Source: Bacteroidota bacterium
Lineage (GTDB): Bacteria; Bacteroidota; Bacteroidia; JABEUT01
DNA length: 40,829 nt
Assembly: GCA_013288205.1 (NCBI GenBank)
Contig: JABDCH010000012.1
Coordinates: forward strand, 1 to 40,829
Reading direction: 5' to 3'
Shown here: positions 1-38,868 of the stretch, in pieces
Layout: each line of letters begins with the position of its first letter
Numbering within the stretch: the stretch's first letter is position 1
Made by a program: the position numbers and the translations under genes
Notes under the pieces: generated by a model
The model's database searches: none
The model's input: only the letters and a program-made list of their open reading frames with translations
What the model was told of the DNA's origin: nothing

Positions 1-805
1 TGCCATTCCACATGGCAATATTATTTACTGTGTCTTTTATAGGGCGACTTAGATTTTGGTCCTCAAAGTATAAAAAAGAGCCACCAACATAAAACTCGGT
101 ATCAATTAGACAGAAGTGGGTCATATATATTGGTGAGTTATTTGAACTAGTATAAAAATAACCATTACCTGGGTATGAAAAGCCCTTATTATTCCACCCA
201 ACTATCGGTTGACCAAAAGTACCATAGTAAAGAGGCCCAAAACCCATTAATAGCTCATTTTTATAGATTGATAAGGCGCATACATTATTCCAATCGCCGC
301 CGTAAGCAATGTGAAGCGAATCTACCTTATTGCCGTTCCAAGTAACAAGTCCGGAAGGACGCTTATGATTTACTGAATCAAATTCCCCTCCAATGTATAG
401 TAAGTTGTTATATGCTTGAATAACATTCACCTGGCCCAACCCTCCTTCTACATCAAAGCCTGCATTGGCAAATGAAGTGCCATCCCATTTGGTGACACAA
501 CCTGCCGAATGCCCGCCCGCAGAGCTGAAATATCCACCCATGTAAACAGTATCTTTATATATACCTATGGCACAAACTCTGCCATTGATACCTGAGCCTA
601 GGTTTTTCCAAGTGATATCATTCCATTGTATAATATTATTTCCGGGCGAGGAGAAATAGCCCCCAGCATACATTACAGAATCGTAAACGAATAAAGTTGT
701 AACATAGCCTCCGGCGGATATTCCGCCTCCAACGGTGGTCCAGGTTTGTGCTGAACTGACACTAAAGAATCCTAAAACAAAAAATATAGAAAGTATTTTC
801 TTCAA
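1..805 (-). CDS. Exported beta-propeller-like repeat protein (3' end outside window)
   Basis: Open minus-strand frame of about 268 codons running off the left edge, so the C-terminus is missing. It starts at TTG 803-805 and encodes a signal peptide (KKILSIFFVLGFFSVSSAQ). The mature part carries repeats of the form 'vYmGGyFssag...W(d/n)g..', typical of kelch/propeller-like T9SS cargo; a sorting domain cannot be seen because the gene is cut. The TTG overlaps the TGA of the upstream gene (sequence TTGA, 802-805), so as drawn it has no promoter of its own and would depend on translational coupling. I suspect this arrangement is a product of the inversion between 805 and 1966: in the opposite orientation a TATCTTTG promoter would lie about 20 nt upstream of the TTG. 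The specific role is unknown. Confidence 0.75.
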   Translation of the reverse strand, partial: MKKILSIFFVLGFFSVSSAQTWTTVGGGISAGGYVTTLFVYDSVMYAGGYFSSPGNNIIQWNDITWKNLGSGINGRVCAIGIYKDTVYMGGYFSSAGGHSAGCVTKWDGTSFANAGFDVEGGLGQVNVIQAYNNLLYIGGEFDSVNHKRPSGLVTWNGNKVDSLHIAYGGDWNNVCALSIYKNELLMGFGPLYYGTFGQPIVGWNNKGFSYPGNGYFYTSSNNSPIYMTHFCLIDTEFYVGGSFLYFEDQNLSRPIKDTVNNIAMWNG

Positions 806-1857
806 TAGAAAAGGGAATCACCAAACTTGCGGAAACGATTAATATACGGTAGTGGTTGTGTATATGGCACAGAAGCAATGCCAAAACTACTGTCCAAGGC
901 CCATGAGTTACCCCCATCTTTTGTAATGTATGACATACCTGTCCATCCACCAATCCAGCCTACTGTATCATTTATAAACCCACACCCTTCTTCATCATAA
1001 TTAGGTATAAAGGGATGTTCCGTCCATGTTTTGCCACCATCGGTTGTTTTTACAAAATAGGTCTTATAGCTTCCTAAATTATTGGATATGTAAATCCCGC
1101 TGTTTCCCGTATATTCAATACTTCCATAGCCCACATTACGGCTCGGAAAAAATATTTTCCAAACATGGTCGGTATCGTTCCGGGTGGCTTCATAAACGGT
1201 CTGCCAGGTTTCACCCCCATCAGTAGTATGCAGGATTACAGAATTAGGGCCGTTTTGCCCCGTAATAAATCCCGTATCTTTACTCCAAAACCAACCGTCA
1301 ATTAACCCCACGGAAGCATAGGAACTCATATCGTAAGTCTTCCAACTTTTCCCCCCATCAATAGTTTTAGCCAAAACAGACGGTCCGTAATATCTACCAT
1401 AAGCATATACAACTGAGCTGCTAACAACAGAAATGCCACATATACCTTTAGGACGTGGTGAGGGGAAATTAACAGGAGTTAATGTTTTTCCACCATCATT
1501 AGTGGAATACATTGCTACTGTATCTGACGTTACAGTTTGATCACCCAGATTGCCAATAAAGCCATGAAGTGAGTCGATAAAACCAACCGAACGTAGGTAA
1601 GATTCCATGCTGTCATGCACCAAAGTCCATGTGACACCAGCATTTCTTGTTTCATACACTTTTCCGAGAATTTTATCAGTAATGGAGTACGCAGCTATAG
1701 GTTCTACCAACCATCCCTGGTTGGGATTGATAAAATAGACATCATCAAAACGCTCAGGAGTAGTTGGGGTATTAGGATAAACTACCCAATTGTATTGGGC
1801 AAATAGCTTTGTAGATGCTATGCACAATAATACTGAAAGAAAAATTCTTTTTCTCAT
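802..1857 (-). CDS. Ycf48/BNR-repeat propeller protein lacking its sorting domain
   Basis: 351 residues with a signal peptide (MRKRIFLSVLLCIASTKLFA/Q) and about six Asp-box/Ycf48-type motifs (TTDGGKTW, TTDGGETW, TIDGGKSW, TKDGGNSW and variants), indicating an exported beta-propeller. Such Bacteroidota proteins usually end in a T9SS type A sorting domain, but this one stops abruptly at GDSLFY. The plus-strand fragment at 1956-2299 begins LFYASGNTIYK and continues into a complete sorting domain in the same frame relative to the shared 11-bp CCCTTTTCTAT. Joined, the two give a normal protein of about 461 residues. A near-consensus -7 element (TATATTTA, reverse of 1881-1888) lies upstream. As drawn, the product would enter the periplasm but not be handled by T9SS. 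Confidence 0.85.
   Translation of the reverse strand: MRKRIFLSVLLCIASTKLFAQYNWVVYPNTPTTPERFDDVYFINPNQGWLVEPIAAYSITDKILGKVYETRNAGVTWTLVHDSMESYLRSVGFIDSLHGFIGNLGDQTVTSDTVAMYSTNDGGKTLTPVNFPSPRPKGICGISVVSSSVVYAYGRYYGPSVLAKTIDGGKSWKTYDMSSYASVGLIDGWFWSKDTGFITGQNGPNSVILHTTDGGETWQTVYEATRNDTDHVWKIFFPSRNVGYGSIEYTGNSGIYISNNLGSYKTYFVKTTDGGKTWTEHPFIPNYDEEGCGFINDTVGWIGGWTGMSYITKDGGNSWALDSSFGIASVPYTQPLPYINRFRKFGDSLFY
805..815 (-). repeat. Left 11-bp inverted repeat of putative inversion
   Basis: On the minus strand it reads CCCTTTTCTAT, identical to plus-strand 1956-1966. It covers the last codons of the propeller ORF (S-L-F-Y) and touches the TTG start of the leftmost gene. The identity stops on both sides (T versus A before, T versus G after). 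Confidence 0.75.
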
Positions 1858-1938
1858 GTATCTTCAATTCATTTCAACTGTAAATATACTTAAATATCTC
1901 TTTTACAGACATTTTTAATATCTATTTGATTTTTCGCC

Positions 1939-1946
1939 TATCTTTG
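1939..1946 (+). promoter_or_regulatory. -7 promoter element TATCTTTG inside the invertible segment
   Basis: Exact match to the Bacteroidota -7 consensus TAnnTTTG. In the present orientation it points at the orphan sorting-domain fragment. After inversion it would face the leftmost gene, with a leader of about 16-19 nt, like other leaders in this window. No convincing -33 element is seen. Confidence 0.55.
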
Positions 1947-1955
1947 AGTTATATA

Positions 1956-1966
1956 CCCTTTTCTAT
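1956..1966 (+). repeat. Right 11-bp inverted repeat of putative inversion
   Basis: CCCTTTTCTAT, the inverted partner of 805-815. It lies in the reading frame of the detached sorting-domain fragment, where CTT TTC TAT again encodes L-F-Y. Confidence 0.75.
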
Positions 1967-2299
1967 GCCAGTGGAAATACCATATATAAACTGATGTTAT
2001 ATAAGCCCGGTACAACAACAACTAATAACGAGGAGACAAACTATGTATTAACAAATTTCCCTAATCCCTATAATACTCAAACCACTATTATATACACCAT
2101 ACCACGCACAAGTAGTTTTGTAACCTTTGAAGTTTATGATGCCGTAGGGCGGAAACTTTTCACCCAAAATTTGGGCAGCCAAATAGCAGGCGAACATCAA
2201 TTACAATATAGCCAACCACTTGCCCCCGGCGAATACTACTACACCATTACTACCAACAACTTCAAGGGTACAAGGAAGATGGTAGTGGTGAACAAGTAA
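1956..2299 (+). pseudogene. Detached T9SS type A sorting domain
   Basis: The frame is open from 1919 to 2299. It reads LFYASGNTIYKLMLYKPG, then a linker, then the sorting domain: FPNPYN, a central VYDAVGRKLF strand, and the terminal PGEYYYTITT...KMVVVNK. The first ATG is at 1994 but nothing there resembles a signal peptide, so alone it cannot be exported. T9SS sorting domains are always C-terminal to a cargo, and the cargo that fits in frame is the propeller gene at 802-1857 on the other strand. It is best viewed as that gene's 3' end, separated by inversion. The DNA shows no stops or frameshifts, so separation looks recent or reversible. Confidence 0.75.
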
Positions 2300-3199: not shown

Positions 3200-3216
3200 A
3201 TGGTTTGGGTAAATAA

Positions 3217-3613
3217 AAAAGCAGGTCTGTAAGCCGGATTCTGTCTGCTTTCTAATAAATTAAAAAGGATCCTATCATTTATCTTACACCGGTTTGCACC
3301 GGTATAGGTCCGCTTTCGCGAATCCTGCAACCTACCCACCTGGATCGGGCGAGCCACCCTCAAGCCCAGGCTTATTTGGTTTTGCAACTCCCGGGGTTTT
3401 TCCCTCCTGCAAGTTGCCTTACAGAATCGTGAGCTCTTACCTCGCGTTTTCACCCTTATCCCTGGGGTTTAGTCAGAGACGGTAATTTTCTGTGACACTA
3501 TCCATCACCCGGTATTTACTACCAAGTGTCCCCCGTACTTCAGGGGCGGGATGCTCATTGTTGTCCGGACTTTCCTCCCCATATCACTATGGAGCGATAG
3601 AACGACCTGCTGG
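3217..3613 (-). ncRNA. rnpB: RNase P RNA
   Basis: Catalytic RNA of RNase P, which removes 5' leaders from tRNA precursors. The minus strand carries the diagnostic GGAGGAAAGTCCGGACA near the 5' end and ACAGAATCCGGCTTACAGACC near the 3' end, the two halves of the conserved P4 core. The outermost helix P1 is perfect: AGCAGGTC (3611-3604) pairs with GACCTGCT (3227-3220). A T-run follows the 3' end (3220-3215). The length of about 395 nt fits bacterial type A RNA. Two apparent ORFs on either strand here (2971-3453 and 3294-3485) are artefacts of this RNA gene. A -7 element lies immediately upstream. Confidence 0.96.
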
Positions 3614-19725: not shown

Positions 19726-19798
19726 GCGAAAGTAGCTCAGTTGGTAGAGCGCAACCTTGCCAAGGTTGAGGTCGCGGGTTCGAGACCCGTCTTTCGCT
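19726..19798 (+). tRNA. tRNA-Gly(GCC)
   Basis: 73 nt. Acceptor stem GCGAAAG/CTTTCGC, D-arm GCTCAGTTGGTAGAGC, anticodon loop TTGCCAA (anticodon GCC), T-arm GCGGGTTCGAGACCCGT, discriminator T. CCA is not encoded. Confidence 0.97.
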
Positions 19799-19856: not shown

Positions 19857-19941
19857 GCCCTGGTGGTGGAATTGGTAGACACGCAGGACTTAAAATCCTG
19901 TATTCATTGCGAATGTGCGGGTTCAAGTCCCGCCCGGGGTA
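19857..19941 (+). tRNA. tRNA-Leu(UAA)
   Basis: 85 nt, class II with a long variable arm. Acceptor GCCCTGG pairs with CCGGGGT (with G-T pairs at positions 1 and 5), anticodon stem CAGGA/TCCTG with loop CTTAAAA (anticodon TAA), variable arm TATTCATTGCGAATGT, T-arm GCGGGTTCAAGTCCCGC, discriminator A. No encoded CCA. Confidence 0.97.
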
Positions 19942-32404: not shown

Positions 32405-34502
32405 ATAAAACGGTATTTAAAATCAGTGGGAGGTATAGCTCCACCCTGGTACCTGTAGATACTTCATCTTCATTGACCTTATCAATAACGTGTACTTTCA
32501 TATCCCAGTGGTACATTCTATTCATCGATTCCATTCTTTCCGCAACTATAGACATTCCGTGAGGCTTATGGAGTAATTTATTCCGTAACTCTTTCGCAGC
32601 TTTCCTACCTATGCCATTATCGTCAATAACGCACATAATATGTCCATCTATTTTTTCAAAGATAATGGTTACTTGTCCAATTCCATCTTGCATATGCATC
32701 AGGCCATGCCATATTGCATTTTCCACATAGGGTTGTATAAGAAGGGGAGGCAGTAATGTTTTATTCTTGTCAAGGTGATTATCAATTTTAATTTGGTATT
32801 TAAATTTGGAGGGAAACCGCATTGTTTCAAAATCAAGATAGTTGAATAGGCCTTCTACTTCATCGGACAGTGTAATTTTATCTTTCCGCGAGTTTTCAAG
32901 CACTCCACGCATTAAACTTGCAAACTGGGCAAGGTAATTGACGGACGATTTTGTATCATTTTTTAATACATAGCTTTGAATAGAGTTAATGGTGTTGTAT
33001 AAAAAGTGGGGATTCATTTGGGTACGTAATGCTTTTAGCTCCAGCCACGATTTCTGCTGTTCCACCATTAGTTTTTCCTTTTCGGCCCCTCTCATCCGCT
33101 GGAATATTACTATAACGAGCAAAATAAGTATTACAGCAATAGATGCAATAAGTATAGTGATTATTTTTTGTGTCTTATATTCTGCAGTCTGCTTAATTTC
33201 CTCTGCGTTACGTATGGCATCTTTTTTATCTTGTTCAGCTTTTGCAGATGCTTGTTTTTGTTCAAATTCATAATTCATTTCGGCCTGGACTATTTTCTTC
33301 TGGTTTGCTTCATTAACTATACTGTCTTTAAATGCTATATATTTTTTAAAATTTCCTAATGCTTCTTTGTAGTTAGCTATTGCGCTGTCGAGTTGAAACA
33401 ATCCTCGATAAGCATCTTGTATTATATCTTTTACTTCGATATTTTTTGAAATTACAAGCGAAGAATCAAAATAGATTTTTGCTTCCTTGTAATTTTTTTT
33501 CAATATATCAAGTCTGCCCAATTCGATATAACATTTTGCTATAGTGCGTTTATAATCTATTTTTCTTGACAGAACCAATGCCTTATAATCATTTTCCCAT
33601 GCCGCTGAATTTTTTCCTTCCTTTTTATATGTGTTTCCAATATCAAGAAGGCAAAGTGTAATTCCAATATTATATTTTATATCCTGGAATATATTCAATG
33701 CTTTGAAAAAGTAGGTAAGCGCAACAGAGTCATTACCTTGTTCAAAGTAAATATTGCCAATATTGATAAGATCATGGGCGCTTGAGTTTCTTTCTCCTAT
33801 TTTCTCACTTATTTGTAACGATTGTGTATAGTACTTCAGTGCATTGGAAAGATCTTCCTGGCTGCCATAGTCAGAGCCTATATCTTCAAGAACACTTGCA
33901 AGTCCTTTTTCGTCATTTATTTCCTTGCAAATAGTGAGGGCTTTAAAATGATACTCCAATGCCTCGGAGTAATTACCTAAGTAATAATAATTGAGCCCGA
34001 TATTAGTAAGATTGTAAGTTATGCTTTTTTTATCGTCAAGTTCTTCATTAATGACAAGGGCCTTGAAGAGGTAGCCTAACGATTTAGTATAGTTGCATAA
34101 TTGGGAATAAGTAGCACCTAACTTCGACAGGGCACTTACTATCCCTTTTTTATTATTTATCTCCTGGAATAAGGCCAAAGCCTTTAATCCATTATCTTCT
34201 GTTGTAGAATAATTGCCCAAGTTATAATTGCATACAGCGCTAGTTAAGAGAGCTGTGCCTATTCCTTTTTTATAATGGATTTTTTCTGATAGAACCTGTG
34301 TTTCCTTTGCAATTATCAATACCGTATCGTACTTGCGGAATTTGAGTAATTCCCCACATAAGGCAGTTAGGGTATTCACCTTGTTGGTATCTTCCCGAAC
34401 AGAATTTCTCAGCAAGGTATTCAGCGAATCTATTTGAGGTGATTGACCCCGGGCTATAATAATTGAAAACAAAAGGAGTAGGGATACAATAAAAGTTTTC
34501 AT
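32397..34502 (-). CDS. TPR sensor histidine kinase, LytS/His_kinase type
   Basis: 701 residues. A signal peptide (MKTFIVSLLLLFSIIIARG/Q) is followed by a periplasmic domain of about eight TPR units (about 35-390, e.g. GNYSEALEYHFKALTICKEI), a coiled coil (AEMNYEFEQKQASAKAEQDKKD), one membrane helix (IITILIASIAVILILLVIVIF), then the cytoplasmic His_kinase domain with the phospho-acceptor histidine in TQMNPHFLYNTINSIQSYV and a HATPase domain (LLIQPYVENAIWHGL, VIDDNGIGR). This TPR plus His_kinase design is typical of Bacteroidota. It forms an operon with the LytTR regulator, overlapping by 8 nt. The -7 element TATGTTTG lies 32-39 nt upstream. Confidence 0.94.
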   Translation of the reverse strand: MKTFIVSLLLLFSIIIARGQSPQIDSLNTLLRNSVREDTNKVNTLTALCGELLKFRKYDTVLIIAKETQVLSEKIHYKKGIGTALLTSAVCNYNLGNYSTTEDNGLKALALFQEINNKKGIVSALSKLGATYSQLCNYTKSLGYLFKALVINEELDDKKSITYNLTNIGLNYYYLGNYSEALEYHFKALTICKEINDEKGLASVLEDIGSDYGSQEDLSNALKYYTQSLQISEKIGERNSSAHDLINIGNIYFEQGNDSVALTYFFKALNIFQDIKYNIGITLCLLDIGNTYKKEGKNSAAWENDYKALVLSRKIDYKRTIAKCYIELGRLDILKKNYKEAKIYFDSSLVISKNIEVKDIIQDAYRGLFQLDSAIANYKEALGNFKKYIAFKDSIVNEANQKKIVQAEMNYEFEQKQASAKAEQDKKDAIRNAEEIKQTAEYKTQKIITILIASIAVILILLVIVIFQRMRGAEKEKLMVEQQKSWLELKALRTQMNPHFLYNTINSIQSYVLKNDTKSSVNYLAQFASLMRGVLENSRKDKITLSDEVEGLFNYLDFETMRFPSKFKYQIKIDNHLDKNKTLLPPLLIQPYVENAIWHGLMHMQDGIGQVTIIFEKIDGHIMCVIDDNGIGRKAAKELRNKLLHKPHGMSIVAERMESMNRMYHWDMKVHVIDKVNEDEVSTGTRVELYLPLILNTVLYD

Positions 34503-37713: not shown

Positions 37714-38868
37714 CTACTTTTTATGAAGGTGCTTATAATAATCACCCAATATTTTCTCAGTCATAGGCAGATAGTATTCCCAAAAAAAGCTTTCTCTTTC
37801 AGCATTCTGTTTATTGTATAAAAACCAGCGTAAGGTCACAATTCCCCTGTAATCGGAAAGAGCCGGGTCTATAGGGTCATCTGCAAAATCGCCCGTAAAG
37901 TAGTAGAATTTATAATTGTCGCTGTCATGGGCAATAACCGAAGGAGATGTTGATGGAATACCATTTTTAGCCAGGATCGAATCACCCCGGGCTGTTGGTT
38001 TAACCGATATTTCTGATACAATTTCATTGGTTTTATCACTGAACATAATATCAAACCAATAAGGGTATTTTATCTTGGAAACAACACCATAATATTTTTT
38101 CCATTTGTCCTGTGTTTCAATTATAGGTACAAGTTCTTTCAGGTCTGTGGTGTGTGATAAGACTTCTACTCGAGTATCCTCGTTCACATAAGCAATACCT
38201 GAACCTTTAAAGTGCCAATCTGTTTTGTGTTCTTGCACATAACCACGTACAAGCCACCGGGGTATTTCATCTGTTTTTGTAGTGTCTAACTGGTCAAAAT
38301 AACGAGCTACCCAACCGGTCCAATGCAGCCCAAACATTTCTTGAAATTCTCTACTCACACCATCACTTGTGGGTGATTCTATATCATTAAATTCAGTAAG
38401 AATAAGCTTATGCTTGTTTTTCATGTTCTTTAGGAAGTATAGATCTTTTTGTGTCATACCTCCATATATGATATGTGACCGTTCTTTTATATCATGGTGC
38501 AGATACCATTCATTGTAGTAAATTCCGTATGTATCTGTAAAGTAAGTCATATCGGCTGTGTCTGACAGGCTATCTAATTGTGAATAGGAAAGTGATTCAA
38601 GCCCATGCACTATGTATTTTTCACTGTCTTTCGGAAAGAAACCATAGTAGTCTTTGGATACGCTGTATAATCGTTTATTGGGCTTGCAGTAACGCTTGTT
38701 AATTAAAATCCAGGTAAATGAACAATGCTCCGTACATTTACTATTCAGCACGGTTTTGTCAACTATTACAACATTCATCACCTTTTTTGGGGTGAGTAAC
38801 CATGCAATCCACATCCATAATGGGGTAAATATGAGAGCAATCACAATAATGTAGACTCTTCCGCGCAT
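37714..38868 (-). CDS. Membrane-anchored protein of unknown function, YaiO neighbour
   Basis: 384 residues. A single N-terminal membrane helix (VYIIVIALIFTPLWMWIAWLL) is followed by an entirely soluble, presumably periplasmic region, with no lipobox and no sorting domain. Notable segments: MNVVIVDKTVLN, a Cys-rich stretch TEHCSFTWILINKRYC, SHIIYGGMTQKDLYFLK, LILTEFNDIESPTSDG and MFGLHWTGWVARYFDQL. The alternation of strand and helix ('LILTEFN...PT') reminds me of class I glutamine-amidotransferase-like folds, but I cannot assign a catalytic residue. Start 11 nt after the YaiO stop; probably the last gene of that operon and functionally linked to it. It converges on the hybrid kinase gene with a 28-nt gap. 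Confidence 0.75.
   Translation of the reverse strand: MRGRVYIIVIALIFTPLWMWIAWLLTPKKVMNVVIVDKTVLNSKCTEHCSFTWILINKRYCKPNKRLYSVSKDYYGFFPKDSEKYIVHGLESLSYSQLDSLSDTADMTYFTDTYGIYYNEWYLHHDIKERSHIIYGGMTQKDLYFLKNMKNKHKLILTEFNDIESPTSDGVSREFQEMFGLHWTGWVARYFDQLDTTKTDEIPRWLVRGYVQEHKTDWHFKGSGIAYVNEDTRVEVLSHTTDLKELVPIIETQDKWKKYYGVVSKIKYPYWFDIMFSDKTNEIVSEISVKPTARGDSILAKNGIPSTSPSVIAHDSDNYKFYYFTGDFADDPIDPALSDYRGIVTLRWFLYNKQNAERESFFWEYYLPMTEKILGDYYKHLHKK

Follow-up and report, generated by a model that had tools for sequence, protein, structure and literature searches.

The locus at the left end of this contig raises the question of whether a gene for a T9SS cargo protein has been split by a DNA switch that attaches and removes its sorting domain, as a sequence-only reading had proposed, or by an event of another kind. 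The window, i.e. the whole stretch of DNA that was analysed, is the complete contig C12 (40,829 bp) of a draft genome (G000) of 2.42 Mb in 153 contigs, which is 62% complete. The features on which the argument turns are the following.

2–805, minus strand: neighbour gene with a TTG start, of which 268 aa are encoded before the contig stops; identified by its orthologue in the congener G009
802–805, minus strand: 4-nt overlap, TTGA, shared by the propeller stop (TGA) and the neighbour start (TTG) and made by the inversion; read from the sequence
805–815, strand-neutral: left arm of an 11-bp inverted repeat, ATAGAAAAGGG; direct sequence match
805–1966: inverted interval, comprising the propeller gene body and the divergent promoter region; one flip gives the G009 gene order and frame
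1857–802, minus strand: truncated YCF48/BNR-type propeller ORF of 351 aa with a signal-peptide-like N-terminus (PF14870, 3.5e-10)
1939–1946, plus strand: promoter-like box TATCTTTG, of predicted activity; a matching box lies between the divergent genes in G009
1956–1966, strand-neutral: right arm, CCCTTTTCTAT, the reverse complement of ATAGAAAAGGG
1958–2299, plus strand: severed C-terminus of the propeller protein, with the last propeller strand, a linker and a T9SS type A sorting domain (profile match; 77% identity to G009)

Elsewhere, the window carries a class A RNase P RNA (3214–3613, minus strand) and two tRNA genes (19726–19798 and 19857–19941, both plus strand).

Structure of the split gene

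The two arms of the repeat are identical at 11 of 11 bp, and at 93% over 14 nt when extended inwards; they sit in the SLFY codons of the propeller gene and in the short leader of the divergent neighbour. The minus-strand propeller ORF ends in ...KFGDSLFY followed by a stop just past the left arm, and the plus-strand frame from position 1958 reads LFYASGNTIYKLMLYKPG...VVVNK before its own stop, with LFYASGNTIYK leading into the sorting domain. The severed fragment matched the Por_Secre_tail profile TIGR04183 (6e-10, over its cut-off) as well as PF18962 (1.3e-6). An in-silico flip of the interval joined propeller and sorting domain into a protein of 461 aa from its ATG, within a frame of 463 codons. 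Both the inverted 11-mers, with the frame kept across them, and the restoration of a propeller-plus-sorting-domain protein of about 461 residues had been put forward from the sequence, and both were confirmed.

The joined protein resembles T9SS type A cargo (TIGR04183/PF18962) in having a signal-peptide-like N-terminus, which was judged by eye, a propeller and a C-terminal sorting domain. It differs from such cargo in that, as drawn, passenger and domain lie on opposite strands, so that signal peptide and sorting domain do not share one open frame.

The joined form in related genomes

The comparison set comprised the 11 genomes of the genus, with a single genome for each species, which are likewise the whole sample of the family, and five of them besides G000 have an orthologue of the propeller gene. 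All five (55–77% identity) match the truncated ORF to residue 351, and their frames of 451–486 codons run across the junction into a sorting domain, so that the joined protein is present in 5 of 5 cases, in line with the sequence-only reading. In the nearest congener, G009, the sorting domain shares 77% identity with 1958–2299 and is collinear with it, which identifies the fragment as the T9SS domain of the same gene and rules out a domain from another gene family. A natural short form ending at GDSLFY is ruled out as well, because the junction is crossed in all five orthologues, and the last propeller strand is retained even by homologues lacking the sorting domain. In G009 the neighbour diverges from the propeller gene with the same box between them, which is the arrangement obtained by one flip of 805–1966. 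Since the five orthologues are joined and the gene order of G009 equals the flipped form, the window shows a derived and precise inversion. Taken together, these alignments indicate that the joined propeller and sorting domain are ancestral, that the drawn orientation is derived, and that an inversion has occurred with its breakpoints at the repeat, a single flip giving back the congeners' gene order and frame. No relatives were found on viral contigs.

The drawn break falls inside the last propeller blade, away from the domain boundary. In the structure predicted for the G009 orthologue (pLDDT 69.5 on average, about 60 in the junction block and 34 in the next), the break lies within strand 347–352, and strand 355–362 is removed. 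The drawn state is thus more than a propeller without its signal, as the end of the propeller is missing too, in the manner of an accidental break.

The severed fragment contains no stop and no frameshift, and its pN between G000 and G009 (0.158) is close to that of the propeller part (0.151), synonymous sites being near saturation. This absence of decay means that the inversion is recent, that it is reversible or still flipping, or that it is an assembly error.

Rewiring of the neighbouring gene

In G009, the orthologue of the neighbour gene encodes a 445-aa T9SS cargo protein that has a sorting domain of its own. The start codon appears to be TTG both in the window and in G009. Between the divergent propeller and neighbour genes of G009, the intergenic sequence TATCTTTGAATTATATA matches the window box at 1939–1946, suggesting that this predicted promoter would serve the neighbour in the ancestral arrangement and face the severed domain as drawn. 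As the TTG start overlaps the propeller stop, the neighbour becomes a second cistron that could be read from the propeller transcript. The sequence-only reading had held that two defects are repaired by one flip; the box does relocate to a position before the neighbour, as in G009, but with the TTGA coupling the neighbour is not plainly defective. On this arrangement of signals, the neighbour was re-wired by the inversion and is not clearly silenced.

The repeat and the search for a recombinase

Like an inverton, the segment 805–1966 lies between inverted repeats that reach the minimum of about 10–11 bp, although pairs of this kind arise commonly by chance: 3460 inverted 11-bp pairs lying within 6 kb were counted in 1.50 Mb of G000. 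For two given breakpoints to coincide exactly with 11 bp of inverted identity is a different matter, with P about 4e-6 (8 of 2 million random pairs), and because it is so improbable we take the repeat to have guided the rearrangement. The 11-mer occurs three times in the whole genome, the third copy being unpaired on its own contig. No congener has a close pair of the 11-mer, whose frequency there is about that of the control, i.e. at chance level, and the pair is absent from the orthologous sites in 5 of 5 congeners with an orthologue. Inspection by eye for longer recombinase-type sites around the 11-mer gave no convincing similarity past 11 bp. The repeat thus seems to have guided the inversion, yet it is not a recognisable recombinase site.

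No recombinase match was obtained on contig C12, and no serine recombinase was found in the 62%-complete genome. Two tyrosine recombinases of the Arm-DNA-bind_5/SAM_5 architecture, a Bacteroidota type, are encoded elsewhere (C34:8643–9710 and C16:24449–25678), and an IS110-type protein lies on contig C110; these three contigs hold the only matches. The negative results on recombinases and on reuse of the repeat are limited by how incomplete the draft is.

These results bear directly on a reversible inverton, in which a recombinase would flip 805–1966 between two states: in one the propeller is sorted and the neighbour has a transcript of its own, and in the other the propeller is short and unsorted and shares its transcript with the neighbour. 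Breakpoints precisely at the inverted repeat, open frames in both orientations, the TTGA coupling in the drawn orientation, the undecayed sorting domain and the two tyrosine recombinases are all consistent with such a system, and the 11-bp arms fall within the 10–40 nt given for inverton repeats in one published account (PMC11892184). However, the repeat is not conserved and recurs as a pair neither in G000 nor in the genus, a nearby recombinase was not found, and the last propeller strand is missing from the short form. We consider a reversible inverton rather unlikely.

Genome-wide scan for similar cases

All 3460 inverted pairs in the 1.50 Mb were flipped in silico and ranked by gain in frame length, a procedure that promoter inversions leaving frames unchanged would escape. 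The C12 pair ranked 7th by ORF gain. No other repair was found among the remaining 24 flips of the top 25, which were rejected either as end effects or as fusing genes that are unrelated and each intact on their own. A stricter scan, requiring a gain at both junctions, retained 8 of 3460 pairs and 13 of 9996 controls and did not pick out the C12 pair.

Among 72 frames with sorting domains in the 1.5 Mb, two internal ones are orphaned: 1958–2299 of the window and one behind a transposase-like frame. The latter (C15:35215–35655, within C15:33688–35655, locus L140) is a second headless sorting domain made in another way, and a 24-bp inverted repeat has its arms at 33617 and 35219; the fragment was discarded as a second flip-split gene because it stands behind the transposase-like frame with no inverted passenger alongside. 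The 62%-complete genome gives at least about 100 matches to T9SS type A sorting domains, which makes for a very large repertoire of secreted proteins. On contig C1, a 243-nt inverted repeat of 83.5% identity (47766–48008 and 50443–50685, L101) arises where two convergent T9SS genes end in their sorting domains; the two genes flank a propeller paralogue, and the repeat may be a substrate for homologous inversion.

Longer inverted repeats were also seen near contig ends. On C2, an exact 77-bp inverted duplication (64965–65041 and 65559–65635, L105 and L124) has one copy in a permease-like ORF and is probably an assembly fold-back, 77 being a common assembly k-mer size. Repeats of 63 nt at 100% (C17:38549–38611 and 38777–38839, L143) and 76 nt at 96% (C47:654–729 and 1413–1487, L182) each lie within a single ORF, and may be either assembly fold-backs or invertible segments.

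Such fold-back-like inverted duplications (the exact 77- and 63-bp ones) lend some support to the view that the 1.16-kb segment was assembled backwards on 11-bp overlaps and that the organism really has the joined gene. A contig end is 0.8 kb away in a 62%-complete draft of 153 contigs, and an overlap of about ten bases is enough for some assemblers to join tips, which counts in the same direction. Nevertheless, an error would require wrong joins at both junctions, each placed precisely on an arm and without loss, a single fold-back yields an inverted duplication and not an inversion, the top flips in 1.5 Mb contain no second such case, and the window has no N. We consider an assembly error rather unlikely as well.

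Discussion

The most economical reading, which we favour by little more than an even chance, is a recent, one-off and lineage-specific inversion in which fortuitous 11-bp inverted repeats bound a segment of about 1.16 kb. A short-homology rearrangement between chance arms would have inverted the segment once and split an ordinary T9SS cargo gene that encoded a signal peptide, a beta-propeller and a type A sorting domain. The 351-residue product, without its last strand and sorting signal, would presumably, by what is generally known of T9SS, reach the periplasm only, may be unstable and has probably lost its function. The neighbour gene would have ended up in tandem behind the propeller promoter, with the sorting domain remaining as a headless fragment. 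Of the sequence-only interpretation, one gene split by inversion at the 11-mer and an ancestral joined form stand; the programmed switch is not supported, given a repeat that is unconserved and not reused, a contig without a recombinase, the lost last strand and the re-wired neighbour.

Several observations count against a one-off inversion. A clean, loss-free inversion limited to 11 bp also fits a site-specific recombinase, and RecA usually needs more than 11 bp. The undecayed domain fits a switch equally well, two tyrosine recombinases exist, and the draft is 62% complete. Inversion of the spacer between short inverted repeats by template switching, which needs no dedicated recombinase, offers a partial parallel in the form described by one report (PMC8604942); the arms are short in both cases, whereas the spacer here measures 1.1 kb, and two switches would be required to invert it cleanly.

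The locus resembles invertons in that a segment between short inverted repeats is flipped, altering a coding sequence and relocating a promoter. It differs in being known from one orientation, in having no adjacent recombinase and no genome-wide site, and in that what the inversion alters is a T9SS sorting domain. Gene-altering and intragenic inversions have reportedly been included among the invertons described by Jiang et al. in 2019, Milman et al. in 2023 and Chanin et al. in 2024. No example of DNA inversion acting on T9SS sorting appeared in the literature searched, a weak absence, as the main papers on gene-altering inversions lay outside that search. A reversible inversion that toggled the T9SS signal of the propeller and moved a neighbouring T9SS cargo between its own promoter and the propeller transcript would amount to phase variation of the export route, which we regard as unlikely; we know of no earlier DNA switch on T9SS sorting, and the window would be the first if it were reversible. 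A switch inferred from one assembly needs support from relatives and from reads. As most likely read, the locus would be a well-resolved case in which a chance short inverted repeat guided an inversion that split the gene of a secreted protein and rewired its neighbour.
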